From Daphnia carinata (Eukaryota > Arthropoda > Branchiopoda > Diplostraca > Daphniidae): a DNA stretch of 64,000 nucleotides. The notes under the pieces are model-generated. The model ran no database searches. It saw only the letters and a list, made by a program, of their open reading frames with translations, and was not told the DNA's origin. The DNA lies in assembly GCF_022539665.2 (NCBI RefSeq), contig NC_081335.1, positions 1,116,001 to 1,180,000 of the forward strand. Reading direction: 5' to 3'. Positions 8,430 to 45,920 of the stretch are shown here, one piece after another. Made by a program: the position numbers and the translations under genes. The stretch's first letter is position 1. Each line of letters opens with the position of its first letter.

Positions 8430-9060
8430 TGACAATCCGTTTTACCCCCCCAAAAAAAAAAAAATAATTCGCCAAAAAAAAAAAAAATTACACTTTTTTC
8501 TTTTTTTTCCGACACGTAGCCATCTACCGCTCAGACTCGTTATTACTGGCATGTAGGCAATTTCAGTCCATTGGATGCCATTCGCAGTTAGTTGAGTAGC
8601 GTGGATGGTGAATAACGTGTGGCTGGAGAAAAATATGTTAAAATGGATAAGATAATAAAAGATAAGGATGGTAAGTACAAAGATTATTATATTAGTTTTC
8701 AATTATTAATTATTGTTTTTTAGCTCTAATTATGAACCTGCAGGCTCAATTATTGTTCGTAATCAGTCCATGCAGCGATGGAACTGAACAATTGTGGGAC
8801 TGTATTTGGGCCAAAAATGGGTGTGGCACGGAAACCCAGAAATGGCACGAGTTCAACCTAAAACATGGATTAGGTACTTCCCGGTTCTTTGTCTATCGAA
8901 AAAGTATTTTAATGCTATTATTTTGCATTCACAGAATTTTAGCGGGGGGATCAAGTCAAGTCTGGAAGTGTTACAGGATGGAAGAGTCAGCCTGTAGTTA
9001 AAAAAACACTGAGAGTGCATTACCGTTAAGGTGTGAGGTAAAGTAATAGAGTAATGCAAA

Positions 9061-9261
9061 TTGCCTAATGAGAAGTACCAACTTGTGTTAATGAATCCAG
9101 TACAACAGCAATCCTTTATAGTTCTGTCACAGCTAGAAGCCTCAAATAATTCTGTTTCTCTGTCTAAAGAACAACTTGTCCTTTACGTTCAGAGTGTTGG
9201 GGAAACTGGGTACTTAAATGGCCCTAAAGATGTTTTAATTTTGCTGCCATTGCAGAGATGA
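9061..9261 (+). CDS. Arm ORF of 66 residues (arm A)
   Basis: Short frame starting MPNEKY and ending LLPLQR. The same frame is kept in all four arms (also 11884-12084 -, 41601-41801 +, 44425-44625 -) with one to a few substitutions each. It lies downstream of the spliced arm gene on the same strand and may be an exon of it or its 3' UTR. No family recognised. Confidence 0.35.
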   Translation: MPNEKYQLVLMNPVQQQSFIVLSQLEASNNSVSLSKEQLVLYVQSVGETGYLNGPKDVLILLPLQR

Positions 9262-9478
9262 ACATCATACATGGACTCTTTAGGTATGAAAGGATTTTTC
9301 TTCAAATAATTTTGAATTTATGACGAAGAATTTCTCCTCCTTTTGCCAACCAGGTCTAATCTACCAAAAAATATTTTATCCAATAGGAAAGGATTTTCAT
9401 GTACTGGGAACACAACTATCAACAATGCAACACTCTACAGGTGCTAGTTTATCATTCAAGAGCCTTATACAATGATGT

Positions 9479-9844
9479 TCATCTGCAATTTGTATGTCCT
9501 TTCCCAAGCTTCCACCAGAAGTTGAATCTATGAGTCATGTAAGTTACATGATCAACAATTGATATGTTTAACGGTGTTGTTTTTCTTTTCTCAATATAGG
9601 TTAATAGTAACATTGGATCTGAAAAGATTCTTGGTTGGGGCAAGACACTGAATAAATTGTATTGATTGGATGGATGACATGACATTTCTATACTTAATTC
9701 GGATTCCCCAGACGGTATTTGATATTTAAAAAATTGAAGTGCATATCTGGGCTCCCTTCTTTTCTGAAGCCCCGTTTCCCCTTGACTCATAATAAGCCCG
9801 TAGGGGGTCATGCCCCTACTGTACGGTATATATAAAAACAACAT
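9479..9844 (-). CDS. Arm antisense ORF of 121 residues (arm A)
   Basis: Starts MLFLYIPYSRGMTPYG and runs opposite to the spliced arm gene. The same 121-residue frame is present at 42020-42385 (identical) and 43841-44206 (one substitution). In arm B an extra T near 11415 leaves only the C-terminal part (11459-11692). It holds an intron-like boundary near 9600 (tatag), so it may be antisense to a spliced transcript rather than a protein. No recognisable domain. Confidence 0.35.
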   Translation of the reverse strand: MLFLYIPYSRGMTPYGLIMSQGETGLQKRREPRYALQFFKYQIPSGESELSIEMSCHPSNQYNLFSVLPQPRIFSDPMLLLTYIEKRKTTPLNISIVDHVTYMTHRFNFWWKLGKGHTNCR

Positions 9845-10400
9845 ATACCGAGGTTTGGAGGGCTCTGGCCGGAAAGGGGACGTGGGGTGCCGCTTCGTCC
9901 GATGATGTGTTCACGGAGGGTGACGTGGCTGCCCACAAATCCGAACTAAAGGTTAATCGCTCCTGTAAAAATGTTCCAAATCTTCAGCTCTTCTTCCGGC
10001 TTCTCTTAGCCAATCACCGGGTAATCTCCCCGGTGGGTCAACAAGGCAGTGTCTCCCCCTGCCTGGGTTGACGGCAACTTTTGAAAGGGCTATTGTGCCT
10101 TTTTAAAGTTGCAAAAATAATTGTAATGTGCAGAGAATTGTCAATAAATTTTTTTTTATAAAATATGTTTTGCAAAATTTATTTCTTTCATTGTCTGTGT
10201 TCACACATTACATTTATCAACTTTTTTTTTTATTTAGCTTGCTCAATTCATCTTTACTGTATTTGCCACAGTAGTATCGTTTATCTGTAAGTATTCAATT
10301 ATTATTTATTACACTTTTTGAATTCTTGAACTTAGACAAGGATCAACGTGTAATACCTTGATATTTTCTGAAGTAATTTTGTATTTGTATATTGTTTTAC

Positions 10401-10468
10401 TGGCATGGGAATCGATCCCCAGACATTCAGCGTGCAACGCCTATGCTCTAACATTGAGCCACGAGATA
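10401..10468 (-). tRNA. tRNA-Ala-like sequence, degenerate
   Basis: On the minus strand: D-arm ggctcaatgttagagc, an anticodon loop gTTGCac giving UGC (Ala) with T33 and A37, and a box B-like gatcgattccc closing a T-arm. The acceptor halves do not pair, so it is probably not a functional tRNA. Same sequence at 43217-43284 on the plus strand. Confidence 0.35.
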
Positions 10469-10565
10469 TATCTAAATTTTTTATTATCGCATATCATATG
10501 TTATCGTCTAGGATGTTTATGCAGTCTTTCACAACTATATGTTTATCTTTCTATTGCTTTTATAA

Positions 10566-10632
10566 GGTCCATAGCTCTGTGGTAGAGCATTCATCTGCGA
10601 TAACTGTTACCCTGGGTTCAAATCTTACTAGA
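10566..10632 (+). tRNA. tRNA-Cys-like sequence, degenerate
   Basis: D-arm agctctgtggtagagc and box B gggttcaaatc are clear. The anticodon region ctgcga resembles tRNA-Cys (ctgca) but reads GCG. Anticodon and acceptor stems pair poorly. Reversed copy at 43054-43119 on the minus strand. Confidence 0.3.
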
Positions 10633-10750
10633 TGTATAAACATCTACATCTAAATGGAGAATATAATATTGCAGTATTGCATTTCAGTTTTATTCAAAAT
10701 GAAAATGCAAGTCCGCAAGTCACTAGAAAAAAGCCAACAAGACATCATAT

Positions 10751-10815
10751 GATTCATGGCTCATTGGTAGAGCATCGGCGCGGAATGCCGAACATCCAGT
10801 GTTCGATCCCTGGAT
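10751..10815 (+). tRNA. tRNA-like sequence with intact T-arm
   Basis: Strongest of the three. D-arm ggctcattggtagagc, a perfect 5 bp anticodon stem (TCGGC/GCCGA) around the loop gcggaat, and a T-arm CCAG-TGTTCGATCC-CTGG with a consensus box B. The loop lacks T33 and the acceptor stem does not pair. Reversed copy at 42870-42934 on the minus strand. Confidence 0.35.
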
Positions 10816-11458
10816 AATAATTGAATGCTTACAGATAAACGATAAACCAATGGAAACAATGCTTACCATTAAACGTGGCATAAACAATAAAGGAGAATTA
10901 AGCAAGCTAAATAAAAAAAAAAGTTGATAAATGTAATGTGTGAACACAGACAATGAAAGAAATAAATTTTGCAAAAAATATTTTATAAAAAAAAATTTAT
11001 TGACAATTCTCTGCACATTACAATTATGTTTGCAACTTTAAAAAGGCACAATAGCCCTTTCAAAAGTTGCCGTCAACCCAGGCAGGGGGAGACACTGCCT
11101 TGTTGACCCACCGGGGAGATTACCCGGTGATTGGCTAAGAGAAGCCGGAAGAAGAGCTGAAGATTTGGAACATTTTTACAGGAGCGATTAACCTTTAGTT
11201 CGGATTTGTGGGCAGCCACGTCACCCTCCGTGAACACATCATCGGACGAAGCGGCACCCCACGTCCCCTTTCCGGCCAGAGCCCTCCAAACCTCGGTATA
11301 TGTTGTTTTTATATATACCGTACAGTAGGGGCATGACCCCCTACGGGCTTATTATGAGTCAAGGGGAAACGGGGCTTCAGAAAAGAAGGGAGCCCAGATA
11401 TGCACTTCAATTTTTTTAATATCAAATACCGTCTGGGGAATCCGAATTAAGTATAGAA

Positions 11459-11692
11459 ATGTCATGTCATCCATCCAATCAATACAATTTATTCAGTGTC
11501 TTGCCCCAACCAAGAATTTTTTCAGATCCAATGTTACTATTAACCTATATTGAGAAAAGAAAAACAACACCGTTAAACATATCAACTGTTGATCATGTAA
11601 CTTACATGACTCATAGATTCAACTTCTGGTGGAAGCTGGGGGAAGGACATACAAATTGCAGATTAACATCATTGTATAAGGCTCTTGAATGA
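11459..11692 (+). pseudogene. Truncated copy of the 121-residue arm ORF (arm B)
   Basis: C-terminal part only, beginning MSCHPSNQYN. The upstream 40 or so codons are still present but out of frame because of a one-base T insertion near 11415. The end of the frame also differs from the other three copies. Confidence 0.4.
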
Positions 11693-11883
11693 TAAACTAG
11701 CACCTGTACAATGTTGCATTGTTGATAGTTGTGTTCCCAGTACATGAAAATCCTTTCCTATTGGATAAAATTTTTTTTGGTAGATTAGACCTGCTTGGCA
11801 AAAAGGAGGAGAAATTCTTCGTCATAAATTCAAAATTATTTGAAGAAAAATCCTTTCATACCTAAAGAGTCCATGTATGATGT

Positions 11884-12084
11884 TCATCTCTGCAATGGCA
11901 GCAAAATTATAACATCTTTAGGGCCATTTAAGTACCCAGTTTCCCCAACACTCTGAACGCAAAGGACAAGTTGTTCTTTAGACAGAGAAGCAGAATTATT
12001 TGAGGTTTCTAGCTGTGACAGAACTATAAAGGATTGCTGTTGTACTGAATTTATTAACACAAGATGGTACTTCTCATTAGACAA
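11884..12084 (-). CDS. Arm ORF of 66 residues (arm B)
   Basis: Same frame as 9061-9261, starting MSNEKY and ending IILLPLQR. It has a handful of substitutions relative to the other three arms, so this arm is the most diverged of the four at this point. Confidence 0.35.
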   Translation of the reverse strand: MSNEKYHLVLINSVQQQSFIVLSQLETSNNSASLSKEQLVLCVQSVGETGYLNGPKDVIILLPLQR

Positions 12085-12142
12085 TGTGCATACTCTATTA
12101 CTTTACCTCATACCTTAATGGTAATGCACTCTCAGTGTTTTT

Positions 12143-12874
12143 TCATCTGTAGGCTGACTCTTCCATCCTGTAACACTTCCAGACTTGATTTGATCCCCCA
12201 TTAAATTCTGTGAATGCAAAATAATAGCATTAAAAATACTTTTTCAATAGACATAAAACCGAAAAGTACCTAATCCATGTTTCATGTTGAACTTGTGCCA
12301 TATCTTGGTTTCCGTACCACACCCATTTTCGGCCCAAATACGGTCCCACAATTGTTCACTTCCTTCACTGCATGGGCTTATTACTAACGATTCTTTTTGT
12401 GCAGCACTAACAGAATTTAAATTTAACACACTGTCAGGTGGTAGACTGAATATCTAAACAATAAATAATTGTTTGTTAAAATTCTATACTTATTTTGAAT
12501 TCTTATTTGAAAAGTTTATGTACCTGAATGTGTTCGCCTAATGCCAATTCATCCTCATGTTCAGTTAGGTTTGAGTTTGGAAAAACCTCCTTCACTGTTT
12601 GGAAACTGTTCCGTTCCAATTTGTTCTTTTCCCCTAGCTGAGCTTGTAGACTCAAACTTTGAGCTACAAAACACAAATGAATAAAAGCAAATAAATAGAA
12701 TCATTATGTATTAGGCCTTACCATCCTTAGCTTTGCTGTTATCTAATATTTTGTGCTGTTGCAATAATTGAGCCTGCAGGTCCATAATTTGATCTAATAA
12801 ACAATAATTAATAATTCAAAACAAATATAATAATGTTTATACTTACCATCCTTTTGTTGTATTATCTTATCCAT
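12143..12874 (-). CDS. Arm gene: small coiled-coil protein, five exons
   Basis: Predicted 162-residue protein. Exons on the minus strand: 12847-12874, 12722-12793, 12524-12663, 12270-12453, 12143-12207; phases agree throughout and all junctions are GT-AG. The N-terminal half has two leucine/glutamine-rich heptad-like stretches (MDLQAQLLQQHK, LSLQAQLGEKNK) suggesting a coiled coil. The second half contains EQLWDRIWAENGCGTET and ends QVWKCYRMEESAYR. It lies just inside the terminal repeat, as a mobile-element gene would. Arms A and D carry broken versions (deletion, frameshift) and arm C only the 3' part. I see no transposase, integrase or polymerase motif. Function unknown; it may be a DNA-binding accessory protein. 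Confidence 0.45.
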
Positions 12875-13082
12875 TTTTCAATTGTTCCTCCAGCCACGCA
12901 TTATTCTCCATCCACGCTACTGAACTAACTGCGAATGGCATCCAATGGACTGAAATTGCCTACGCCAGTAATAATGAGTCTGAGCGGTAGATGGCTACGT
13001 GTCGGAAAAAAAGAAAAAAGTGCGATTTTTTATTTTTTTTTCCGCCATTTTTTTTTTTTTTTCATGTAAAACGGATTGCCAT

Positions 13083-13250
13083 ATCACCTTTCGAAATCAT
13101 CACACTATAAATAAACAATAAGAAACAGCTAGCTAAACAGCCACAAATAGCCGCGGTTGTCCTATTGACCCTATCATGAAAGCATCTAGCGAAGGCATCG
13201 CAAACTACCGAACGATTGCATTAAAAAGAAAACTCGGGACTATTTTTTTT
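13083..13250. other. Short spacer between repeats
   Basis: Unremarkable AT-rich sequence between the palindromic element and the MITE-like element. Confidence 0.4.
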
Positions 13251-13617
13251 GTCGGGCTTATTTTTTACATCCGGCTGAGTCTTATCTTTAAACGGCGATT
13301 ATTTCAAAAACGGCTTACTTGACAAAACAACAAAGGGCTTTTTCCGAATCAGCGTTAAAATTAGGTTATACTGTGGGATTTTCATCGCATTCCGAGAGAT
13401 TTCGATTTTTTCCGATTTTGACAAAAGTGGGAAGGCTATAGCCTTCTCACTTTTTCAATTTTGGCAAAATTTTAGATTTTGCTTTAAATACATAGTTTCG
13501 ATGCAGAATTGAACGGGCAACACGAATATGAGGGTTGTTTTCTCGTGGGATTCATAGTTTTTGAAAAAAAACGTAAAAAACGATGAAGTTGGGTTAAAAA
13601 ATAAGCCCGGGCTTATA
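13251..13617. mobile_element. MITE-like element with cgggcttatttttta ends
   Basis: A 367 bp block whose ends are inverted: gtcgggcttattttttac at 13251-13268 and gttaaaaaataagcccgggc at 13593-13612. No ORF of note. Related fragments with aagcccgac/gtcgggctt ends lie at 39640-39680, so the family is repeated in the window. Non-autonomous DNA transposon is the simplest reading; the flanks were not resolved into a target duplication. Confidence 0.55.
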
Positions 13618-13716
13618 TTGTCGTGATTAAAATTTTTGCCTATTAAAAAATAATAGCATTAAATCTAGATAACTGTAGATGATTCTGATTCAAAATTAAC
13701 CAAGGAACACGGAAAT

Positions 13717-13889
13717 GGAACTTGTTTTTACGTAGAGTTTATACTTTTGGAGTAATCTAAAATATAAAATTAGTGTGTGTGCGAAACGAAACCATTACTA
13801 ACCCGCCAGTACGCTACAGCGCTAGCGTGACACATCAAACTTCTTTGATTATTCAAAAACCATAAACTTTACGTAAAAACAAAGTTCAT
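13717..13889. repeat. Inverted repeat around acttgtttttacgta
   Basis: Arms ggaacttgtttttacgtag (13717-13735) and acgtaaaaacaaagttcat (13871-13889) are near-perfect inverse copies and extend inward through the tttata/tataaa parts. The middle has a small palindrome cgctagcg. Could be a second, shorter MITE. Confidence 0.5.
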
Positions 13890-14399
13890 ATAATAATTCC
13901 TAAAAATAAACATATTAAACTGTATGCTAGGACAACAACTTTATCTGGTACCAGTTATTATTTTATGTATAGTTCCACTCTTAAGGTGTAGTGATTTATT
14001 TGTTGGTGGATTGATACTGTATGATGCTACAGGTTCTCCTTAAATTGTGGTGATTAAAATCACGAGTGGTGTCGTTTCCAGTATGGGGAAGGTTTATAGA
14101 TCCCATATTCTGATATTGTAAAACAATCTTTTCTCCTTTATTGCCTGATGGGAAAAGCTAGAACTGATTCTAATCTAGAAATTAAACAGAAAGAGTTCTG
14201 CCCGCGAAGTCACAGTTGTGCATAATCTCGAGAGAAGAATTTTTAAATCCTAGGGTTGGAAGAATGATTATCTGGTGCCGAAAACTTTTATTTAGTATTG
14301 AAATTAAATTTTTTTTTTATTTTTTTTAATGATTATTTGCCTTATCCATTTGGATATGTTTGTAAGCAAAAAAAAAACGACGATTACCATAGGTTTAGT
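13890..14399. other. 3' flank of USP5-like gene
   Basis: AT-rich sequence with T-runs. No gene seen; probably contains the 3' UTR of the minus-strand deubiquitinase gene. Confidence 0.4.
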
Positions 14400-17300
14400 T
14401 TATGGTGATCGACGGTACAGATATAGATATCCCAACTCAAAGGGAGGGTTTTCAGACACGGCCACCTTTTCATCGTTGTAAATTACCCAGCGCCCATCTC
14501 TTTTAATGTGGCAAACGTAGTGACCGACACTTGTTGACGTCCCCATGTGTGAAATGAAAGCGGCCAATTCATAAACTAAGGCGAGGAAAAAAATAGTTAA
14601 ATTATCCATCTAGGCAAATAATCTCATCAAATCTAGGCTAATAATTTTCATACCAGGTGGGCCATCTATAAATGTGGGTTCAGAAAGAGCGGATGCGTTG
14701 GTGGGGGTTGCAGAAGGGGCTGGTGCGCAATCGCCGCTGCTTATCTCATCGGGATGAGAAAATATCCAGTCGGCTGCGCGTTCCACGTTATTATCTGTAT
14801 TTTGCAAGGCCTTGACGCACTGGGAACGACTAAATCCCATTGACTGAAGCATGGCGACGCCCTCTTCATCTGCTTTGAAGATACCTGTGGAGGGTGCAAC
14901 GATACCCCGTAATGATATCCTTTATTTATTTGTTACACAAATTATACCCGATGAAGAATTTAATAGTGGGGTCAAGAAATCTGGATCGTCCATGTGTTCC
15001 ATGATCCACTGGGTAGCGGCCTCAAGTCCAGCGCCATGCGTGAGAATAGCTGCACGCTTGCATGCAACCAGCGGGAATCCCATTTCAGTCAAAGATTCCA
15101 CGACGGCCAAATCGGCAGCGGGTTCAACAGCGGAATTGGAAGCTGTATCAAATATGTGAACGAAAAAAAAATTATAAAACAAAAAATAAAAGACTTGCAT
15201 TACTAACGGCTGTTTGTTTACCCAGCTGATCAATGGTTTCATCGGACATCAAAACTTCATTAGTTTGTTTTCCATCAGCTTTCATAAAGGACAGATCAAT
15301 AACCAGCGGAATTTCAACAGCAACGTCTAATTTTACTGGCGTCCAGTCCTCTGCCAAAGTGAACTTTCGCAACTGAATCCACAAATAGTCCGGAAAGGTA
15401 GCTAATTTTGTTGTTCTACAAGTAATAAATTACAATAAAATAATTTATCATTTTTATCCCATGAGCTAAATACTTCAGGGCAGTTGTTTTTGCATTGATG
15501 GCACTGCTGTAGAAATTCTGGACCTCTTCAGGACGGATAAGGGCTTCGAAGCATGATTGAAGTGTAACTTTTGGTCGTACCACATCGTCCGATTTGCTGT
15601 CAAAATGGAACAATCGATAAAACCTGAATTTAGCACGTTGTTGTACACAATAAAACTTACAATGGTTGTCCTGCAGCCATGGCCGCTTTCTTCTGCTCAT
15701 TGAATAGGCGAACTTCTTCGGTGTTAGATGCCGTATCAAGTGGAACAGGTACTGGTAAATGGTATTCAGGTCTAAAGAAAAAGATGTTTAACTTAAATAC
15801 ATGAAAACGTATTACGCTGGTCATCGTACCTGCGCGTATAACGAACTTGCCCAGATGCAAGGCACTGTAGTCGTTCTTCAACCTGAAACTTAAAGCTTTC
15901 GACCGGACTAGTTGAAGGCTTGGGATGAACTCTCATATTCCGCTAATGTAGTGAACATTATTGCCAAAACGAGTTCGCATTTTATATTAGTGCCCTTAAC
16001 ACTACATATAGTGAAAAATAGAAGTAAAGAAATTTCCTACCTCTGTGATGTTGATCATATGGAGTAAAAATTCCACGGCGTCTTGTTGTCGTTTTGTTGA
16101 AAATTCCGGGTGACCCTTACCGACTAGTGATTTAAACATGGAAGGTTTAATACCCTGCTGATGCTGGTTTTCTACATCGTCAATCGGGAGGGAATAACGC
16201 CCGGAAAGGATTCCCACAGCCAATTTTGACCTAGAAATACAGATCGATAATACAGCATTAGGAAAAAAGAAGGAAACCATTTGGCAGGGAAATTCCGCTT
16301 ACATTTGAACATTGAAATCCTGGAAGGCGTTTGTATCAGCAGCACTAATGATGGCATCTTGGTCGTTAAAAAAACTAAAGGTAGATTTATTAAATTCTAG
16401 TGAATAATCTCTTTGCCCTATGATTTTGTGCAACTACCGTTCTTGAAATGAAGGTACCGTGAAAAGAACTTGAATGACACTGTTAAGATAGCACGAATTG
16501 CCAAGGTTCGTCAATCCTGTATAACCCGGTCCAAACAATGGAACTAACGATTTTCCGGTTTCCTGAATGGAAGCCCATTCACCTACCCGCTGGTTTAAGT
16601 CAATCTCTAATTCGGCCATTGATTTATCCGTCTAAAACGTAACAAGAAAAGATTGAATATTAACAGCTAGGATTGTGAAGGAACTAACTATTACTTTTTT
16701 CATTCCATCCATATTTATGCCAAAGTGTGCAAGATGATGTTTCAGATATGGATCCTCAACCATGTCGTCTTCAGCATAGCTATACACATCTGCTTTACCA
16801 TCCCCTGAGATCGTACCCAACTTGACAGCTAATGGATAACCTATCAAAAATTTTTTTGATAAAAAATTAAAAGAAATAGTTACAGATAGGTGTCAAAATT
16901 ATGGTACTGATGCTTCTTCAACTAAATTTTACCAGTAGCTTCATAATGTTCGAGGGCGTGATTGTTACCCCCTGTTCCATCGAAAAATTTACGACCGCAT
17001 AACACGGTTCCATCTGATAAATTCATCCAGAGGTTTTCTGTTTTATCACACTTGGAGCATTGCCATCCTTGTGGTGGGACTCTTACGCCGTTGTGTAATT
17101 GCTCCAGATTTGCGGCAAATTTGGAAACCTGTCTGTTTTCTCCATCCCAAGTTGATTCAAGAGCTGACAATTCTTCTAAATGTCTAGCACTTGGTGCAGC
17201 TAGAATTCCTTGAATACTATTCTCCAGCTGCACATTACAACAAAAGAAAACAAATTTATCTTTATTGTTACGAATGGTTCTTTTATCAAGGCTAAATACC

Positions 17301-17859
17301 TCAAGTGGTAGATTAGGGTGTGGAAGTGGGATTTCAATTGGGCCAGGATATATGGCAACAGAATGTTTTTCTTCATATTCAAACTTTGTGGTACTTTCCA
17401 TGGGAAAACCCCCTTCTATACCAATAGCCAACCTAGTTATTTTCTTTTCAGGTTCTAATTCACTTTTCTCTTGTGGCAACAACTTTTTGATTTTCCTCAG
17501 GTGAAGGAAAATTTTGTTTCCAGTTTTCTTTACATGGTGATCAACATAATCACGACCATAACCCAGAAACGTGTTTAAGCACACATATAAGCCAGTCTCA
17601 GATTCCTTTAATAAACAATAGAGGGTATTAACTTTATGGAACAAATATTTTTAAAAAACCTAAAACAGGGGAGTAGGGCTATTCATACAGATATTATTCG
17701 AAGGCGAAATATACTATATGATTGCATAAAACCTGACATATTTACCGGCGTGTCAAAGGAAAGCAAACATTCATCCTTGAAGACTTTATCTCCAGGCTTC
17801 GGTACTCTCATAGCAGATAAATAAGGTTTTAAAGTTTCACCCAAATTCGAATCCTCCAT
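14400..17859 (-). CDS. USP5: Ubiquitin carboxyl-terminal hydrolase 5/13 (isopeptidase T)
   Basis: Cysteine deubiquitinase that disassembles free polyubiquitin chains and recycles ubiquitin in cytosol and nucleus. Starts [10 protein letters not shown] at 17859; exon 1 is 17746-17859 (38 codons), exon 2 17300-17605, exon 3 from 17228 down, with about a dozen exons to the stop at 14400. Domains in order: N-terminal cryptic and true zf-UBP ([13 protein letters not shown]...[11 protein letters not shown]), the Cys box [19 protein letters not shown] near 16450-16530, two UBA domains (around 15000-15140 and 14760-14850) and the His box [13 protein letters not shown] with WVIYND near the C-terminus. 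This UBA pair inside the catalytic core is the USP5/USP13 layout. USP5 is more likely than USP13 as arthropods usually keep one gene, but this is inference. Confidence 0.92.
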
Positions 17860-19017
17860 TTTATTTGGCTTTGTGTTCAAGAATCTGTCACTTCCAGCCG
17901 CTTACAGTTCCCTATTTCACTTTTCTTTGCTGATCTCACTAAGTTGTCTGCTTCACTACAGACCACGAAATAAAAGAACGTGATGGCCGCCATAAGGCTA
18001 AGAAGCAGCGGGGGTAGACAGGCTCAGTGTTGCCCATGATGGCGCGATGAACGTTTTGAAAATTTCACTGGCGTTTTTCCCGTTTTCCTTACTGATGCAC
18101 CGCTTCACATACGGGCTTTATTACGTGTAACTATTATTATAAGAAATTACGAACTACGTTTAAATATATTCATTTGTAGTTTTCCGTTTTCTAGTGCGTG
18201 TAAATTCTTTTAATATTTTTCTCTCGTCTCTAATCCTCCCTAATAAAATGTCAAATTGCCCTGTTAATATTCCCGTTGGTGGGATATTGTTTTTTTAGGA
18301 GGACTATAGTTGCGTGATAAATGGGAAAGAATTCATAAGAATTAGGGAAGGGCCCGTCCCCAATTCCAATAACTATTAAAATACATTCAAAAATTCATAT
18401 ATTTACATACAATTGCGTTTGATAAGGTCAGCGTGTGATGCGCTAGATCAGTATGGAAACGGGAAAAGGGCCAAACGTTTTCGAAGCGTACGACGCTACT
18501 CCATCGGTGAGATCGATAATATCCATCAAGCACAACATAGGGACAGTCTCTGTGCCCCTTTGTACTGCTACTGAGTTAAAAGGGATTGCAAATAAGGACG
18601 AGAGAGGATTTCTGCGGCTAATTCATAAACATTGCACTTCTGTACACATTATTTGTTACATTTGTTGAAATTTTATTAACAACCAAAGTATAACACTGGA
18701 TACCTATCTTACAACTACTATACGGAATATCTAGCTTTTTCTGTTGACGAGGTTGTCAAGAAGATCATACTTGGCGCGTTTTACTCTCTACTCATGTACT
18801 TGCCAATATATAAAACAAACTTTAACTTTGTTGATGCATACAGAGCGCACAACATTCTTTCATCTTAAAGGACACTTATTACGTAAATAATCCGTTATGG
18901 AAATCCTTTTACGCTAAACACATTTTCAATTTTATGTCAAAAGGGAAATCACAGTTTGTCAAAACAGCAGAAAGATTTGAATTTGATGAATTTTACAAGT
19001 TAACAAGTAGTAAAATA
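17860..19017. other. Spacer upstream of USP5-like gene
   Basis: Probable promoter and 5' UTR of the USP5-like gene at the left, and 3' flank of the YccV-domain gene at the right. A 71-codon plus-strand ORF at 18453-18668 has no domain or splice context and is not called. No repeats seen. Confidence 0.45.
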
Positions 19018-19855: not shown

Positions 19856-20125
19856 TTTAAAATAGCAACAACTATTCTGCCAATAAGCTAAACACAAACA
19901 ACGATATTTGAAAGACACGTCATATACGTAGTTCCTTAATTGTCCACTTGTTTTGACTGATAACTCAGGGATCATGAAAAATGCAACATAGACGCCAGAG
20001 TCACGCATCGGCCGAAGCGCCGTTAATGGCAACATTTTAAAATGTTTTTGTGCCTTAACCAGAGATTAGCTTCACTGAAATATGTATTTTAATGTAGGAT
20101 ACAGGGATTTTTGAAACTTGAATTA

Positions 20126-22801: not shown

Positions 22802-27992
<5,191 letters not shown>

Positions 27993-31322: not shown

Positions 31323-31850
31323 CTTCCGGATTTGATTACAAATGAACAACAGAAGCTGTCAAAGTCAGACGACAATTTTCAACGACACCTAGCGGATAGA
31401 TGTATAAACATAAATAAATTTAAGCCCGTATTTCGACAAAAAAAACTGGGTACAATTACAATAAAAAAACTTGAGTATAATTACAAAATTTAAGGGGCGG
31501 CAATTTGGCTTCTGTGAAGAAACTAAACACATTTTCAGATGTGACGGTTATGTATGGGTTTCAGACTTCAGCCTGATTAATATCCTTAAGTTTAGCTAAT
31601 CACTTATTCAAAGACCATATAAATTGAACTATTAGCCTGTGCCAGTTTTTAAAAAATGAGGAATCTTACTTCTAACACTCAAGATATGACATTTTTGCAA
31701 TCAACATCAATTTAGGTAATGATGTAGAATCATTTTGATAATAATTAGAATCAAATTAGCCTTGACAATGCATCTTGTATTCACTCTTTACATAAGCATG
31801 GTATCTCAGATGAAATAATCAGGTGCAGCCAGGCCAATCTGCTTTTACTT
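31323..31850. other. Spacer between AP-3 sigma and eS27 genes
   Basis: AT-rich; a 67-codon plus-strand ORF overlapping the AP-3 start is a shadow. Holds the AP-3 promoter and the eS27 3' UTR. Confidence 0.45.
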
Positions 31851-36662: not shown

Positions 36663-37422
36663 AGCTGAGTTAAAATAATTTACCAAACCTCAACCAATAT
36701 GTCACAGATATATACTGCCTGCACCGATAATGTCAGTTGTTCTCGCCTAGTTGCACATATTGAGAGCTCACCACATCATAATAAATAAAATATACAAAAC
36801 GCCCACCCAAGGTAACCAAATAATAAGCTGCACAAGATGAAGCCGCTCTTACAGGTAGACTACTGTGTAAATTGAAGCATTAAATACTGATGTTTATTAT
36901 TTACTTCCTGTCATACCACAGAGACCTATCAGGGATGTGCATCAGTTATCGCATCGATTGTTCATTAATCGATAGTTCTCCGATATGAAATATTCTTCGA
37001 TTGTTCAATTCCAACTGAGTAAAAATACATGCAAGTAGGAACGTAGCCTTAATGCTTGTAATTTTATATCAATAACAAACTAACTTTACCAAGTACGTAT
37101 TCAAATGTTTTCGAGACACATTGACCTGGTGACCTCGCAGTTGTTTATTAGTATGCTCATTAATTTTTAGGAAGGAATTTGATGTGTATTCTTTCAAATT
37201 CAAACTCTGTTCAAGTGGTTATAAAAATACAAATTATGGCAAAATATTATCATAAAAACACTAAAAACTATAAAAATTGAGCGTTAAAAGGCAAATTTGA
37301 TTCATTTGGCAGGAAAACTGTCAAAGATTCTCGTCTAATGATATATTAGATCGTAGATACGGGGTTAAAAATCCTAGCATGCGGATGAGGAATGCGCGTA
37401 ATAAAAGCGTCGTTTGATAAAG
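36663..37422. other. Spacer between RALBP1 and CDC20 genes
   Basis: RALBP1 promoter region and CDC20 3' flank. AT-rich, no ORF of note, no repeat recognised. Confidence 0.45.
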
Positions 37423-39447
37423 TCAGCGGAAATTGGACATGGCGTCAAGTGCAGACCGCGGCTCATTCCTGCGGCCAGTTGTTCCTTTCTTTTTGTTTGG
37501 GTCACTTTGAAAACAGTTCCACAACCGAAGTGTTTCATCAGCTCCGGCGCTCATCACAGCCGTTTCACCAGGTGACATGGCCAAGTGCAAAATGCGTTCG
37601 TCGTGGCCGGTCAGTTCTGCAACCTGTTACAGAACAATTATATTAAAACTAGTGGACGGTTTGGCAACAAAAATAATAAAGCGCGATAACCTTTGCCTTT
37701 GTCGGATACTTCCAAATTTGCAAAGTGTGGTTCGGAAAACCGTGAGATGAGATTATTTCCTGATATTCGGAGTTCCAGAAGATACCCGAAACCTGGCTTT
37801 TGGTGTCAATGGTGTCTACGCAGTCTCCAACGTTCATGTTCCAGAACTTGATGGAGCGATCGTTGGTACCACCGCCAGTAGCTAGCAATCTATTTTGCCA
37901 GGGACACCATGCCATTCCTTTAACTGCCGCTTGGTGCTGACTACGAAAGGAAACATTTATAGAAACGGAATGATAAACCGATAATAGGCATTCTATACTT
38001 AAATACGTGAAGAGGGGTGTTTCGTGTAATTTGACCACTGGTACCCTCCCAGACATGGACGAGGTTGTCATTGCCACCGCTCGCAAGGAATCTGTGGTCG
38101 CCGGACCATTTTAGTGAACAGACCTTTTGTTCGAAAAATACAGTTAAAGTTGGCTTCAAAGGTACACATCGAATGGCATACCTCTTGCGTGTGACCTTCT
38201 AAGGAAGCAACTAAATGCTGTGGGATTCGTACGTCATGGTGGAAGATTAGACCACTTCGCGAGCCGCTAGAAAGAACATGTTCATTCCATGCTAGGACGC
38301 CAATACGTGCAGCATGGCCGGCCATTGTGCGTAACCTTCTTTGTTGCTGGATATCCCACAGTTCAACGCAGCCAGTGTTGAGACCGATCGCCAAATAGCT
38401 CCCATCCTGAGTGAATTGGACTGAGGATACATAATTGTCATCGCCTTCACACTCCATCAATTCCTGAATATCGCCTGAAGCGGCATTCCAAAGGTAGACC
38501 TGTTTATCTAATGCGACGCTTATAAAATTTGTCTGGGACCAGTCCAAGAGGTTGAGATCTAGAAAGAAAAGAAAATTACCAACATCATAAAACGAAGATG
38601 TTACTGGTATATTAATACTCACAGTAATCATTCATCATCGCAGGAGCATCAAGAACACGATCAGCAGTGTTTGGGATGAACCTGGTACTAGGTTTCTTCT
38701 GCGTAGATGAGGATGCCGAATATAGTGCCTGCAAAAACAAAACAAAAAAACATTCAATAATGGCTAATTCTTATCATTTCTACATGACTTGTACTTTTTG
38801 ATGATTAATGTAAGCCTCCTGTGGCTTTGGAATTTGAGCAGTTTGGTAGGAAAGAACACGGTCACCAGAAGAATCTTCTGAAGTCAATTTGTGGTGAGCA
38901 GCCTCAAAGTCAGTGGTGCTTCTAGAAGGCACCATTCTGTCACCAAGTATGTTTTGTGTCTTACGAACAACACCACCCACTCCTGGGCTCTTCCAACTAT
39001 TAGGCTTTCCAAGGGTAGGTCCTTGTGTCATTTTAGGGGTTTTATTGTTGAATGAAGTATCTGTTCGTCTAGGGGTTTTTGTAGCTACACTTTGTGAGTT
39101 TGTGGAACAGTTCAAACTACAGTTAAAGAAGAAAACTTTTGGTGAAGCAATCACAAACTAATTTTAAATATAGGTAGAGAAACTATATAAATATGTGTCA
39201 TCATACCTCATGTTAATACTGCCATTACAGAGGGATTTTCCCAATTTGGTTGACTGGTCATTTTTGGAAATTTGATTTTCTTTCTTACTAGACATCAAAT
39301 TTACTTCACTAATATTCATAGTGATGGCTCGCAATCTGTTTTCAATGGAGAACTGAGCCACTAAACGAGAAATGCGTAAAGAACATAAGGATTTTTTTTT
39401 CATCAACACACTTCAAAATCTAATTTTAAACTTAACTCGATCTTACT
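37423..39447 (-). CDS. CDC20: CDC20/fizzy, APC/C activator
   Basis: WD40 adaptor that activates the anaphase-promoting complex and is held by the spindle checkpoint. Start [10 protein letters not shown] is formed by splicing: the A of ATG is the last base of an upstream exon (39447), and TG GCT CAG opens the next exon at 39360. Following exons include 39207-39360 and one opening at 39116. Motifs: a KEN box (SSKKENQ), the C-box DRMVPSR, then seven WD repeats ([80 protein letters not shown]). It ends SNFR, in the place of the Ile-Arg tail that docks on the APC/C. Human CDC20 also opens MAQF, supporting the start. Confidence 0.92.
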
Positions 39448-39705
39448 TGTCAGATATATATGATAAAGTAACTGCAGAGTGCATGTACCAAATGCTTGTC
39501 GTGTAATGAAGTAACCGTTTTCGAAAGCCCTTTAAGAAGCAAATTTTAAAATAAACTATAGCGTTGCCAATTCGCATAGAATAGAATTCTAGAGCAACTA
39601 GAAATTTGGCCGGTAGATGGCGATAGCAATAAAATTTCAAGCCCGACTAAATAAGCCCGACTTTTCTTGGTCGGGCTTAAAATATTTTGCTACAAAAACT
39701 GACAC
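39448..39705. other. CDC20 5' UTR exon and repeat fragments
   Basis: The CDC20 5' UTR exon lies next to 39447. From about 39598 comes aactagaaatttggccggtagatggc, which directly resembles 45823-45845 at the far end of element 2. A fragment with aagcccgac/gtcgggctt ends (39640-39680) belongs to the MITE family of 13251-13617. Confidence 0.5.
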
Positions 39706-39828
39706 TCCCTGCTACCGCCATCTACCGGTCGGTAGATGGTGACAGTAACCGAAACAAATGCCAGCAAAAAGCAAACGAATGCCAAAGGTGAGACATGCTG
39801 GAAAAGCTTGATACGAATGTGTAGGCGT
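39706..39828 (+). repeat. Left outer terminal inverted repeat of element 2
   Basis: Begins ccctgctaccgccatctacc and ends atacgaatgtgtaggcg; near-exact inverse of 45628-45749. Confidence 0.85.
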
Positions 39829-40338
39829 AGTTTTGGAATTCCGAGGTGCTAGCCGGCTGTTTGGTAAAACTTCAGTTAAATTTGGTTTCAATTCAATATG
39901 TTTTACTTATTATTTGTGTGATTACGCAAAGGATTGCGCCATCCAGGCAATGTGGATATTCTGCCATATACATGATAAACCTAGGATTCTTCGTCAACAT
40001 GCAAGATGTTACCCCCTGGTGATGCTTTTCCGCTGAGTTTGTTTAGTTTTCTAATTTAATCGTCAATGTCGTATTAGCAAACTACTGTTGACAGAAAAGC
40101 TGATACATTGGGACAACAGTTACGGCAAGTGTGATGAATAAATCACCATAGATCAGTTGCCTTGCCTTCCCAATTGCAACAAAGACAAATCCTGGAGTCA
40201 AAAACATTAAAAGATGGTACTATTTTAATTATTTTAATTGATATATCGCTAAGTGCTGATATGTGTGTAGAACGTGCTGGAATTCATGTCATCCTGGAGA
40301 GGACTAAAAAAAAAGAGCTGTATCCATGAAACAGCTCA

Positions 40339-40582
40339 TTAGTCACGTCCCAAATGAATGCCTGCGTCAGCCAGCAATCTTTCAATGGCTAACAAGCATT
40401 TAATGGTTTTGAAAATCGTGGTTTGCACACCCTGAGGCGACATTCCTAAATCCCCCTGTCAAAAGATTTGAATGCAACAATTTTTATTCTGAACTGATAC
40501 CTACCAAATTCTTTTTCCATAAAATGAGGTGATATGAGGTTATAATGGAAATTGCTGTCAAGACTGCCGAGACCAGGTACAT
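40339..40582 (-). CDS. Possible small two-exon membrane protein inside element 2
   Basis: Exon 40505-40582 (ATG start, 26 codons: MYLVSAVLTAISIITSYHLI...) joins in phase to exon 40339-40455 (39 codons, ending ADAGIHLGRD, stop) by GT-AG sites. Predicted 64 residues with a hydrophobic N-terminus resembling a signal anchor. I do not recognise it. It lies in the unique part of the composite element, so it could be a captured host fragment or a chance frame. Confidence 0.25.
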
Positions 40583-40997
40583 TGTTTACCTTAACGTTTA
40601 GTGATCAAAACAACCAACTTTGTAACCTTTCTGTTTTTTATGGTGCATGGAACGTCCAACCGGAAAGCCCATGGAAGATCTCTGTGGCCAACACGAAGGG
40701 TTCTTCCAAACTTTCGTATTCAAGTTTTGGTTATGGTGATCATTTGCAACTGCATAGCCTTTTAGAAGCTCCTGCCAGGAATCTACAGGAATATGGCAGA
40801 TGATGAATTATGTACCATGTAAGCTATATCAATAAGAATGTTTTATGCTTATCTATGTTTTATTTTCTTAATTTAGATTAATAGCAATAGTGAACCTGCG
40901 AAGGTTTCTGGTTGGGATGTGAGGACGAAAAGTTATAATAATTTGAAGTACGGAATTGAATTTCCCTCCATCAGTCGCCTGTGTATTCCTGCGTATT

Positions 40998-41424
40998 ATG
41001 GTATTAATTATTTAAAAATTGAAGTGCATATCTGGGCTCCCTTCCTTTCCGTAGCCCCGTTTCCCCTTGACTCATAATAAGCCCGTAGGGGGTCATGCCC
41101 CTACTGTACGGTATATTAAAAAAAACATATACCGAGGTTTGGAGGGCTCTGGCCGGAAAGGGGACGTGGGGGTCCTCATGGTCCGATGATGGGTTCACGG
41201 AGGGCTGTGTCGCTACCCACAAATCCGAACTAAAGGCTAATCGCTCCTGTAAAAATGTTCCATATCTTCGGCTCTTCTTCCGGTTTCTCTTAGCCAAACA
41301 CCGGGTAATCTCCCCGCTGGGTCAACCAAGGCAGTGTCTCCCCCTGCCTTAGTTGACGGCAACTTTTGAAAGGGCTATTGTGCCTTTTAAAAGTTGCAAA
41401 ACAATTGAATTGTGCAGAGAATTT
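40998..41424 (+). repeat. Diverged extra copy of an arm segment
   Basis: Matches about 9713-10140 of arm A (gaagtgcatatctgggctccc through the polypurine/pyrimidine blocks to ttgcaaaa) but with more substitutions than exist between the four main arms. It breaks off at the T-run where arm C begins, suggesting an older related element or a recombination scar. Confidence 0.7.
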
Positions 41425-41600
41425 TTTTTTTGTCTATCGAAAAAGTATTTTTAATGCTATTATTTTGCATTCACAGAATTTAACGGGGGATCAAATCAAG
41501 TCTGGAAGTGTTACAGGATGGAAGAGTCAGCCTACAGATGAAAAAACACTGAGAGTGCATTACCGTTAAGGTGTGAGGTAAATTAATAGAGTAATGCAAA

Positions 41601-41801
41601 TTGCCTAATGAGAAGTACCATCTTGTGTTAATGAATCCAGTACAACAGCAATCCTTTATAGTTCTGTCACAGCTAGAAGCCTCAAATAATTCTGCTTCTC
41701 TGTCTAAAGAACAACTTGTCCTTTACGTTCAGAGTGTTGGGGAAACTGGGTACTTAAATGGCCCTAAAGATGTTTTAATTTTGCTGCCATTGCAGAGATG
41801 A
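41601..41801 (+). CDS. Arm ORF of 66 residues (arm C)
   Basis: Same frame as 9061-9261 (MPNEKYHLVL...LLPLQR), differing at two positions from arm A and identical to arm D. Unknown function. Confidence 0.35.
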   Translation: MPNEKYHLVLMNPVQQQSFIVLSQLEASNNSASLSKEQLVLYVQSVGETGYLNGPKDVLILLPLQR

Positions 41802-42019
41802 ACATCATACATGGACTCTTTAGGTATGAAAGGATTTTTCTTCAAATAATTTTGAATTTATGACGAAGAATTTCTCCTCCTTTTTGCCAACCAGGTCTAA
41901 TCTACCAAAAAATATTTTATCCAATAGGAAAGGATTTTCATGTACTGGGAACACAACTATCAACAATGCAACATTCTACAGGTGCTAGTTTATCATTCAA
42001 GAGCCTTATACAATGATGT

Positions 42020-42385
42020 TCATCTGCAATTTGTATGTCCTTTCCCAAGCTTCCACCAGAAGTTGAATCTATGAGTCATGTAAGTTACATGATCAACAAT
42101 TGATATGTTTAACGGTGTTGTTTTTCTTTTCTCAATATAGGTTAATAGTAACATTGGATCTGAAAAGATTCTTGGTTGGGGCAAGACACTGAATAAATTG
42201 TATTGATTGGATGGATGACATGACATTTCTATACTTAATTCGGATTCCCCAGACGGTATTTGATATTTAAAAAATTGAAGTGCATATCTGGGCTCCCTTC
42301 TTTTCTGAAGCCCCGTTTCCCCTTGACTCATAATAAGCCCGTAGGGGGTCATGCCCCTACTGTACGGTATATATAAAAACAACAT
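42020..42385 (-). CDS. Arm antisense ORF of 121 residues (arm C)
   Basis: Identical in translation to 9479-9844. Identity between two elements 32 kb apart shows recent spread or gene conversion more than selection on the protein. Confidence 0.35.
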   Translation of the reverse strand: MLFLYIPYSRGMTPYGLIMSQGETGLQKRREPRYALQFFKYQIPSGESELSIEMSCHPSNQYNLFSVLPQPRIFSDPMLLLTYIEKRKTTPLNISIVDHVTYMTHRFNFWWKLGKGHTNCR

Positions 42386-42784
42386 ATACCGAGGTTTGGA
42401 GGGCTCTGGCCGGAAAGGGGACGTGGGGTGCCGCTTCGTCCGATGATGTGTTCACGGAGGGTGACGTGGCTGCCCACAAATCCGAACTAAAGGTTAATCG
42501 CTCCTGTAAAAATGTTCCAAATCTTCAGCTCTTCTTCCGGCTTCTCTTAGCCAATCACCGGGTAATCTCCCCGGTGGGTCAACAAGGCAGTGTCTCCCCC
42601 TGCCTGGGTTGACGGCAACTTTTGAAAGGGCTATTGTGCCTTTTTAAAGTTGCAAAAATAATTGTAATGTGCAGAGAATTGTCAATAAATTTTTTTTTAT
42701 AAAATATGTTTTGCAAAATTTATTTCTTTCATTGTCTGTGTTCACACATTACATTTATCAACTTTTTTTTTTATTTAGCTTGCT

Positions 42785-43441
42785 TAATTCTCCTTTATTG
42801 TTTATGCCACGTTTAATGGTAAGCATTGTTTCCATTGGTTTATCGTTTATCTGTAAGCATTCAATTATTATCCAGGGATCGAACACTGGATGTTCGGCAT
42901 TCCGCGCCGATGCTCTACCAATGAGCCATGAATCATATGATGTCTTGTTGGCTTTTTTCTAGTGACTTGCGGACTTGCATTTTCATTTTGAATAAAACTG
43001 AAATGCAATACTGCAATATTATATTCTCCATTTAGATGTAGATGTTTATACATCTAGTAAGATTTGAACCCAGGGTAACAGTTATCGCAGATGAATGCTC
43101 TACCACAGAGCTATGGACCTTATAAAAGCAATAGAAAGATAAACATATAGTTGTGAAAGACTGCATAAACATCCTAGACGATAACATATGATATGCGATA
43201 ATAAAAAATTTAGATATATCTCGTGGCTCAATGTTAGAGCATAGGCGTTGCACGCTGAATGTCTGGGGATCGATTCCCATGCCAGTAAAACAATATACAA
43301 ATACAAAATTACTTCAGAAAATATCAAGGTATTACACGTTGATCCTTGTCTAAGTTCAAGAATTCAAAAAGTGTAATAAATAATAATTGAATACTTACAG
43401 ATAAACGATACTACTGTGGCAAATACAGTAAAGATGAATTG
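42785..43441. repeat. Spacer of element 2, inverted relative to element 1
   Basis: Same 657 bp as 10244-10900 but reversed between the arms: it begins ttaattctcctttattg, the reverse complement of the right end of the first spacer, and ends cagtaaagatgaattgagc, the reverse complement of its left end. The three tRNA-like blocks are at 42870-42934 (-), 43054-43119 (-) and 43217-43284 (+). Confidence 0.85.
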
Positions 43442-43840
43442 AGCAAGCTAAATAAAAAAAAAAGTTGATAAATGTAATGTGTGAACACAGACAATGAAAG
43501 AAATAAATTTTGCAAAAAATATTTTATAAAAAAAAATTTATTGACAATTCTCTGCTCATTACAATTATTTTTGCAACTTTAAAAAGGCACAATAGCCCTT
43601 TCAAAAGTTGCCGTCAACCCAGGCAGGGGGAGACACTGCCTTGTTGACCCACCGGGGAGATTACCCGGTGATTGGCTAAGAGAAGCCGGAAGAAGAGCTG
43701 AAGATTTGGAACATTTTTACAGGAGCGATTAACCTTTAGTTCGGATTTGTGGGCAGCCACGTCACCCTCCGTGAACACATCATCGGACGAAGCGGCACCC
43801 CACGTCCCCTTTCCGGCCAGAGCCCTCCAAACCTCGGTAT

Positions 43841-44206
43841 ATGTTGTTTTTATATATACCGTACAGTAGGGGCATGACCCCCTACGGGCTTATTATGAGT
43901 CAAGGGGAAACGGGGCTTCAGAAAAGAAGGGAGCCCAGATATGCACTTCAATTTTTTAAATATCAAATACCGTCTGGGGAATCCGAATTAAGTACAGAAA
44001 TGTCATGTCATCCATCCAATCAATACAATTTATTCAGTGTCTTGCCCCAACCAAGAATCTTTTCAGATCCAATGTTACTATTAACCTATATTGAGAAAAG
44101 AAAAACAACACCGTTAAACATATCAATTGTTGATCATGTAACTTACATGACTCATAGATTCAACTTCTGGTGGAAGCTTGGGAAAGGACATACAAATTGC
44201 AGATGA
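43841..44206 (+). CDS. Arm antisense ORF of 121 residues (arm D)
   Basis: One residue (Thr for Ile in the SIEMS stretch) differs from the copies in arms A and C. Unknown function. Confidence 0.35.
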   Translation: MLFLYIPYSRGMTPYGLIMSQGETGLQKRREPRYALQFFKYQIPSGESELSTEMSCHPSNQYNLFSVLPQPRIFSDPMLLLTYIEKRKTTPLNISIVDHVTYMTHRFNFWWKLGKGHTNCR

Positions 44207-44424
44207 ACATCATTGTATAAGGCTCTTGAATGATAAACTAGCACCTGTAGAATGTTGCATTGTTGATAGTTGTGTTCCCAGTACATGAAAATCCTTTCCT
44301 ATTGGATAAAATATTTTTTGGTAGATTAGACCTGGTTGGCAAAAAGGAGGAGAAATTCTTCGTCATAAATTCAAAATTATTTGAAGAAAAATCCTTTCAT
44401 ACCTAAAGAGTCCATGTATGATGT

Positions 44425-44625
44425 TCATCTCTGCAATGGCAGCAAAATTAAAACATCTTTAGGGCCATTTAAGTACCCAGTTTCCCCAACACTCTGAACG
44501 TAAAGGACAAGTTGTTCTTTAGACAGAGAAGCAGAATTATTTGAGGCTTCTAGCTGTGACAGAACTATAAAGGATTGCTGTTGTACTGGATTCATTAACA
44601 CAAGATGGTACTTCTCATTAGGCAA
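44425..44625 (-). CDS. Arm ORF of 66 residues (arm D)
   Basis: Identical in translation to the arm C copy at 41601-41801. Unknown function. Confidence 0.35.
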   Translation of the reverse strand: MPNEKYHLVLMNPVQQQSFIVLSQLEASNNSASLSKEQLVLYVQSVGETGYLNGPKDVLILLPLQR

Positions 44626-44656
44626 TTTGCATTACTCTATTAATTTACCTCACACC

Positions 44657-45417
44657 TTAACGGTAATGCACTCTCAGTGTTTTTTCATCTGTAGGCTGAC
44701 TCTTCCATCCTGTAACACTTCCAGACTTGATTTGATCCCCCGTTAAATTCTGTGAATGCAAAATAATAGCATTAAAAATACTTTTTCGATAGACAAAAAA
44801 CCGAAAAGTACCTAATCCATGTTTCATGTTGAACTTGTGCCATTTCTGGGTTTCTGTACCACACCCATTTTCGGCCCAAATACGGTCCACAATTGTTCAG
44901 TTCCTTCACTGCATGGGCTTATTACTAATGATTCTTTTAGTGCAGCACTAACAGAATTTAAATTTAACACACTGTCAGGTGGTGGACTGAATAACTAAAC
45001 AATAAATAATTGTTTTTTAAAATTCTATACTTATTTTGAATTCTTATTTGAAAAGTTTAGGTACCTGGCTGTGTTCGCCTAATGCCAACTCATCCTCACA
45101 TTCAGTTAGGGATGAGTTTTGAAAAACCTCCTTCACTGTTTGGAAACTGTTCCATTCCAATTTGTTCTTTTCCCCTAGCTGAGCTTGTAGACTCAAAATT
45201 TGAGCTAAAAAACACGAATGAATAAAAGCAAATAAATAGAATCATTACGTATTAGGCCTACGATCCTTAGCTTTGTTGTTATCTAATATTTTGTGTTGTT
45301 CCAATAACTGGGCCTGCAGCTTCATAATTTGATCTAATAAACAATAATTAATAATTGAAAACCAATATAATAATGTTTATACTTACCATTTTTTTGTTTT
45401 ATTATCTTATCCATTTT
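44657..45417 (-). pseudogene. Arm gene copy D with frameshift
   Basis: Counterpart of the five-exon gene at 12143-12874. Exons begin MDKIIKQK and keep the LQAQLLEQHK and LQAQLGEKNK coiled-coil stretches, but a one-base deletion near 44885 disrupts the fourth exon after EQLW. Splice sites look preserved. Confidence 0.45.
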
Positions 45418-45519
45418 TCAATTGTTCCTCCAGCCACGCGTTATTCTCCATCCACGCTACTGATCTATCTGCGAATGGCATCCAATGGACTGAAATTGCC
45501 TATGCCAGTAATAACGAGT

Positions 45520-45920
45520 CTGAGCGGTAGATGACTACGTGTCGGAAAAAAAGAAAAAAGTGTGTTTTTTTTTGTTTTTTTTGACGAAATTTTTTTTTTT
45601 TTTTTTCGGGGAAAACGGATTGCCATACGCCTACACATTCGTATCAAGCTTTTCCAGCATGTCTCACCTTTGGCATTCGTTTGCTTTCTGCTGGCATTTG
45701 TTTCGGTTACTGTCACCATCTACCGACCGGTAGATGGCGGTAGCAGGGAAACAGAAAAAAAGGCCGATATTTTTTTTTTTTTTGGGTAAAACGGATTGCC
45801 ATATATATATATAGAGAATTAACTAGAAATCTGACCGTAGATGGCAGCAGTAAAACAGAAAAAAATATATATATATATTTTTTTTTTGGGGGGTGGGGGG
45901 AGGTAAAACGGGTTGCCATA
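45520..45920. repeat. Three tandem terminal modules
   Basis: Three successive modules, each with a gtagatgRc motif, an A/T homopolymer and a closing g(g)taaaacggattgccata: about 45526-45627, 45729-45803 and 45836-45921. The last two differ in homopolymer length and contain (TA)n. The same pair of motifs marks both ends of element 1, so the modules look like stacked element ends. Confidence 0.65.
45628..45749 (-). repeat. Right outer terminal inverted repeat of element 2
   Basis: Inverse of 39706-39828. It sits directly outside arm D, so the arm D end and the outer repeat are adjacent. Confidence 0.85.

Follow-up and report, generated by a model that had tools for sequence, protein, structure and literature searches.

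A family of palindromic, foldback-like elements in Daphnia carinata with probable exchange between arms and a pair of oppositely oriented centres

Orientation of the centres in the window pair

A stretch of 64,000 bp from Daphnia carinata (C5:1116001-1180000, in a genome of 108 Mb in 106 contigs), referred to here as the window, contains two elements that sequence self-comparison revealed as palindromes around a 657-bp centre. Do the opposite orientations of these centres record recombination between the inverted arms, as was proposed in the original prediction, or did whole elements come to lie in opposite directions? The pair belongs to what is probably a large family of apparently non-autonomous foldback-like transposons whose arms undergo conversion and break-repair copying; inversion of the centre is a likely product of such arm exchange but is unproved for the window pair. 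The reversal itself was confirmed. The centre of copy 1 differed from the reverse complement of the copy 2 centre at 0/657 positions, as against 453/657 in the same reading direction (Table 1), and the junction words named in the prediction were present. This type of centre was confined to the two window copies among the best 40 of 432 candidates in the genome, the next reaching 94%.

The inverted arms were real, with self-matches of 1385 nt at 99% in copy 2 and of 929 nt at 98% plus 291 nt at 97% in copy 1. Their description as near-identical held for copy 2 (1356/1359 aligned bases, 99.8%) but not for copy 1, whose arms agreed at only 1716/1805 (95.1%). Likeness between the copies was similarly uneven, with inner parts at 98 to 99% (copy 2 left arm versus copy 1 left and right arms) but only 96% between the full right arm of copy 2 and the copy 1 arms. 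The innermost 810 bp were identical between the two left arms, versus 24/1358 differing sites in the copy 1 right arm (Fisher test, P = 2e-8). Judged by these identities, a core of about 1.5 kb (centre plus inner arm) is recently common to the pair and the remainder is not. This core looks like the result of conversion between both copies or of common origin followed by arm replacement, such that the centre and the inner 810 bp of one arm would have been recently copied or inherited between copies.

Opposite centres alone do not prove a flip, because a whole palindromic element inserted in reverse gives an identical picture, and a test needs differences between left and right arms because mirror-image arms hide orientation. 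The four window arms varied at 36 ungapped sites, and one of these (position 10167) fitted the flip pattern, with G on the physical left arm of both copies although the centre is reversed, and with G in 0/52 other arms. A flip read from this site requires a crossover inside the innermost 76 bp of the arms. Alternatively, G was formerly on both arms, and the copy 1 right arm was overwritten by sequence of arm subfamily X (defined below) while copy 2 underwent one short conversion; the two accounts are about equally simple.

Among the readings of the pair, one without any flip or special exchange has somewhat less than an even chance of being correct. According to it, the elements were inserted or copied in opposite orientations, and mirror-image arms hide all but the centre. 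The strand distribution of centres in the genome (18 plus and 22 minus of 40 scored) agrees with it, the copy 2 arms retain almost no record of orientation, and the copy 1 right arm, which shared the majority allele of X at 15 of the 21 sites peculiar to it, was probably replaced later, leaving its original orientation unreadable. However, this reading needs an extra conversion at position 10167 and says nothing on the uncoupling of centres and arms across the family. A strict flip, with the centre of one copy inverted in place by crossing over between its own inverted arms, is a tentative proposal: position 10167 speaks for it, but this is one site in the pair, and the crossover must land within 76 of about 2180 bp. 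The reversal could thus reflect insertion orientation, conversion in inverted register, or a later flip, among which the data do not discriminate.

The element family and the relation of arms to centres

The search for further copies that had been suggested for the pair uncovered a large family with centres in both orientations. With the centre as query, 432 candidates were obtained and the best 40 scored; all 40 covered most or all of the query, and their 18/22 division between strands is as random insertion gives. Twenty loci were fetched with their flanks and eight later, a sample of best-scoring centres and well-matched terminus pairs in which old copies are underrepresented. A complete member measured about 5.0 kb, of which each arm took up about 2.18 kb and the centre about 655 bp. 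The family termini, TGGCAATCCGTTTTAC, were TA-flanked, and the arms ended in ATGGCAATCCGTTTTAC. Exact genome matches numbered 135 for the long terminus pattern and matches to the short 18-base terminus 803, with 0 for the reversed control in each case. TA, which may be the element's own last bases, flanked both ends in 19/20 loci with two ends printed, the exception being L026 (TG on the left); L033/34, with no left end printed, was excluded from this count. Dispersed copies, arms that form most of the element, and shared exact termini place the family in the structural class of long terminal inverted repeat, foldback-like DNA transposons, and copy number, termini, and dispersal point to its mobility. 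At six loci (L013, L019, L020, L024, L025, and L027), element ends had further copies of the 17-bp terminus, complete or partial, directly beside them, and closely spaced terminus pairs were also present among the short-terminus matches genome-wide, as if copies insert at or beside one another's termini or leave footprints.

Arms were compared in 28 loci with both arms, excluding two with one short arm (L011 and L028), and association with the side of the centre was examined in 26 loci oriented by their centres, leaving out the window copies. Polymorphic arm sites were associated with centre side (P < 0.01) in 7/16 cases within 150 columns and in 0/218 cases beyond. Linkage between centre and arm is absent beyond about 70 columns in these 26 loci, which favours the idea of recombination between arms. 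In 10/28 loci, including the window copies, the two arms resembled each other more than they did any other arm in the sample, with one of the ten (L010) a tie to two decimals. Arms were assigned to a young subfamily X and an old subfamily Y with cut-offs of our own choosing (98.3% and 96.8%, respectively), giving 3 loci of X-centre-Y, 5 of Y-centre-X, 6 of X/X, 9 of Y/Y, and 5 unclassified. Mixing of X and Y alone could be explained if an X arm had independently replaced either the left or the right arm. Arm replacement is clear in L053, where the right arm is 99.15% identical to X arms and the centre 92.7% identical to X centres. In the pair L025 and L026, left-to-right and right-to-left comparison gave a match at 64/64 shared informative sites, and L020 and L026 matched in parallel at 58/62 informative sites. 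Switches between X-like and Y-like identity fell at differing arm positions, which speaks against one specific recombination site.

Sidedness was also followed with a deletion junction in the arm, termed J and represented by a 35-mer across the junction with linked base changes picked out by eye (at most two mismatches allowed). J had 28 matches in the genome, 22 of them exact, and is probably of single origin. Two loci carried J on both arms around the centre, which speaks for arm-to-arm copying. For the 24 single matches, meaning that no second match at up to two mismatches lay nearby (not every opposite arm was read), J was left of the centre in seven (L009, L023, C3:2764176, L071, L076, L077, and L079) and right of it in five (L060, L061, L069, L074, and L081, the last on the basis of a short match). 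The side was ambiguous in five (L065, L066, L067, L070, and L080) because the centre carries its own inner inverted repeat, L065 being counted here after giving opposite sides in two comparisons. The remaining seven (L059, L062, L063, L064, L072, L073, and L078) had no centre in the fetched stretch. Within one centre subfamily, J lay right in L060 and L061 and left in L076, L077, and L079; each such change of side is explained by one inversion or two conversions.

These family-wide patterns bear on the strict flip in both directions. The contrast between far and near arm sites in their association with centre side is in its favour, as is J on both sides within a single centre subfamily, for which one inversion suffices where conversion takes two steps. 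Against it, arm conversion, evident in the loci with J on both arms and in overwritten arms, yields the same patterns, and the locus pairs with the closest centres (L009/L023 and L017/L018) show no flip. The part of the original prediction that invoked recombination across arms therefore holds to the extent that exchange across arms occurs in the family, but inversion and two-step conversion are not distinguished. Its analogy with plastid genomes and the yeast 2-micron plasmid is loose, the scanned frames having yielded no recognisable recombinase.

Under the preferred reading of arm conversion and break-repair copying, broken or stalled DNA in one arm of a closely spaced inverted repeat would be repaired from the opposite arm or from the arm of another copy. 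Such break repair or conversion would give homogenised arms, mixed arms, and J on either side, and crossovers would invert the centre.

Flanking palindromes and features of the window

In 4/20 loci (L010, L015, L031/32, and L037/38), the flanks were inverted copies of each other. At L010 (C6:3397382), the flanks mirrored each other for about 4.0 kb beyond the element, and the alignment of about 3811 bases contained 25 mismatches along with some indels; farther out, divergence rose to 13 to 16% in the next two 250-bp bins, and stretches about 5 to 7 kb out on either side did not match. Bases 1 to 777 of the L010 flank query were present only in that pair among the best 40 of 707 candidates scored. 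The flank palindrome of L015 was about 0.8 kb long, and the first 200 bases of its query occurred only there (12/12 candidates scored). At C3:11690992, the palindrome extended 823 bp past the element's ends, a single mismatch separating the two sides over 872 aligned bases, and the flank also adjoined a diverged outer-arm copy 35 kb away. Shorter flank palindromes were found at C1:3695552 (about 0.4 kb at 97.5%) and at L012 (568 bp in repeat DNA). Most simply, the opposite arm would have served as template for repair of a broken arm, and synthesis would have run past the element end, leaving a palindrome in the flank. The reverse course, in which the element landed exactly midway in a pre-existing palindrome, needs prior long, spacer-free palindromes in unique DNA and was judged unlikely.

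Two candidate sites for comparison were discarded. A putative empty site for L037/38 at C3:11725874 proved to carry a terminus backed by about 800 bp of diverged outer-arm sequence, and for a supposed second copy of the L024 locus on a 25-kb contig (C44), the 1.6-kb flank query fully matched only itself among the best 40 of 851 candidates. As a separate observation, the flanks of two copies within C3:11683800-11733000 were 99.9% identical over 1788 bp and diverged just inside the element terminus. This is an apparent larger inverted duplication and suggests a role for the elements in segmental duplication as well.

Assemblers are well known to err at inverted repeats of 2.2 kb, and reads shorter than the arms would produce arbitrary centre orientations, averaged arms, and folded-back flanks, as the near-identical arms at several loci and the 1/872 flank difference at C3:11690992 might suggest, but this explanation is improbable given that the copy 1 arms differ by 5%, that the window lies inside a 9.75-Mb contig, that the L010 palindrome comes to an end and has substitutions and indels scattered between its flank copies, and that J was found repeatedly on each side.

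Several observations weigh against the preferred reading of a mobile family shaped by exchange between arms. No transposase was found, as no frame of at least 150 amino acids lay inside either window copy, and no clean longer target duplication was seen at family loci; identical 7- or 8-bp direct repeats were present by eye at 0/20 loci, with partial matches at L018 and L022. The finding that arms are closest to each other comes from 28 loci and depends partly on which relatives were fetched. Two conversions can also put J on either side, and the loci with J on both arms show that the intermediate exists. Not all mirrored flanks were unique DNA, the L012 flank being a repeat family and that at C3:11690992 having local copies. 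The closest-centre pairs, chosen among pairs with at least eight informative sites, kept their arrangement (L009/L023, 30 sites parallel and 0 antiparallel; L017/L018, 22 parallel and 1 antiparallel); therefore, linkage is lost slowly, and recent linkage is not erased. The stronger proposal, that Daphnia centres invert appreciably through arm recombination, with both orientations present among individuals or clones, and that the same process grows palindromes into host DNA, is doubtful.

Each arm contained short frames separated by what appeared by eye to be intron-like gaps. The arm protein search gave 14 clusters, annotated as separate uncharacterized Daphnia carinata proteins. No P-type THAP transposase was detected with Pfam in six copy 2 frames, one composite, and 14 relatives (a subset of all frames), and no DD34E/D transposase was recognised in the frames scanned, a scan that did not extend to autonomous relatives. 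A BEN-like domain that inspection by eye had suggested for the arm protein had no support in Pfam or PDB sequences, where no convincing domain was found in the arm proteins.

The coordinates of the window elements and associated features are collected in Table 1. The copy 1 left arm is shortened by an internal deletion, a full arm being about 2.18 kb. The 124-bp outer inverted repeat beside copy 2 is a dispersed repeat elsewhere, its best other copy reaching 95%. Right of copy 2, two more termini were present on the minus strand at 45787-45919, one exact and one with 1 mismatch to ATGGCAATCCGTTTTA, and related insertions appear to be nested at this end of the locus. An inner-arm module of ~450 bp (9714-10162 and 41004-41420) recurred outside full copies at roughly 78 to 93% identity, and several palindromic families may share it. 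Outside the palindromic elements, a 795-residue open frame (3496-5883, plus strand) carried an N-terminal THAP domain (Pfam, E = 1.1e-7) and may represent a transposase remnant or a domesticated gene.

The description of the centre as tRNA-like fared less well. Three stretches contain words spotted by eye that resemble A and B boxes, but an Rfam scan of 8400-13100 gave one tRNA match below the cut-off (21.4 bits against a gathering threshold of 29; E = 0.54), and ARAGORN (bacterial code) reported no tRNA for either the window or 20 related loci. A conserved tRNA gene was rejected on these grounds, the three stretches also being hardly more conserved than the remainder of the centre.

Table 1. 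Positions of the two window copies and of features in and beside them
Feature	Position	Strand	Remarks
Copy 1 left arm	8429..10243	+	Starts with terminus ATGACAATCCGTTTTA at 8429-8444; whole arm classed as subfamily Y
Copy 1 centre	10244..10900	+	657 bp
Centre inner inverted repeat	10275..10305		Partner at 10814-10844, 97% over 31 bp
tRNA-like stretch 1	10399..10466	-	A/B-box-like words by eye; mean column conservation 0.981 versus 0.965 outside the three stretches
tRNA-like stretch 2	10568..10637	+	By eye; mean column conservation 0.979 versus 0.965 outside the three stretches
tRNA-like stretch 3	10750..10816	+	Sole Rfam-matched stretch, below cut-off; mean column conservation 0.970 versus 0.965 outside the three stretches
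Copy 1 right arm	10901..13082	-	Full length, subfamily X; terminus ATGGCAATCCGTTTTA read on - at 13067-13082
Outer inverted repeat, 124 bp	39706..39829	+	Partner at 45626-45749, 99%; partner abuts right end of copy 2
Diverged inner-arm relic	40797..41423	+	81.8% to inner right arm of copy 2; directly adjoins truncated left arm of copy 2
Copy 2 left arm	41426..42784	+	Outer end truncated at about 41426
Copy 2 centre	42785..43441	-	Reverse orientation
Copy 2 right arm	43442..45626	-	Full length; terminus at 45611-45626, 1 mismatch

Significance and comparison with known systems

Perfect palindromes are usually unstable, and Daphnia reproduces both clonally and sexually. With its many mobile palindromes of 5 kb, the genome offers dozens of naturally replicated cases of inverted-repeat repair in an animal, in which the pace at which arms convert, centres invert, and palindromes grow could be measured with and without meiosis. 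If true, outward growth would turn unique neighbouring sequence into new palindromes. Annotation of the arms as separate proteins may inflate gene counts. No Daphnia element of this kind was found by title in the literature, a search that did not cover subscription papers or repeat databases, so that the family may be listed elsewhere.

Foldback and Tetris elements consist mostly of inverted arms around a short middle, and the Daphnia family resembles them in this general architecture. Target duplications in the P superfamily are 8 bp long, and the 7- or 8-bp duplication expected of that superfamily was not observed in the Daphnia family. TA on both sides in 19/20 loci invites comparison with Tc1/mariner elements, but the TA may be the element's own.

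In the parts of the sources drawn on here, the closest known systems are Galileo (PMC3573991) and Foldback and Foldback-like elements such as Tetris (PMC4079207). As far as the excerpted account of Galileo goes, this element of the P superfamily in Drosophila has long inverted arms that make up nearly all of many copies, and its dispersed copies lack a transposase (PMC3573991). Chimeric copies with arms from different subfamilies numbered 12/170, and the same excerpts describe arm growth through copying across the inverted repeat and invoke break repair, conversion, and ectopic recombination (PMC3573991). Long arms, dispersed copies with no transposase recognised, and arms of mixed subfamilies are features of the Daphnia family too, for which growth by copying and break repair are likewise proposed. 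In the same partial account, Galileo is flanked by 7-bp, usually identical duplications and recruits inner parts of the element as its arms grow (PMC3573991), whereas the Daphnia family has TA at its flanks and appears to grow outward into flanking DNA. Also unlike Galileo as portrayed there, the Daphnia family combines 2.18-kb arms bearing short gene-like frames with a constant centre of about 655 bp. The family thus departs from Galileo in what flanks the insertion, in what the arms contain, in having a constant centre, and in its outward growth, and no P-type transposase was recognised in the Daphnia family. A further parallel is provided by the palindromes of sex chromosomes, whose arms, according to the portions of the sources used, are >99% alike and kept so by conversion (PMC8981503 and PMC7023750); those palindromes are chromosomal, whereas the Daphnia palindrome is a repeated mobile element.

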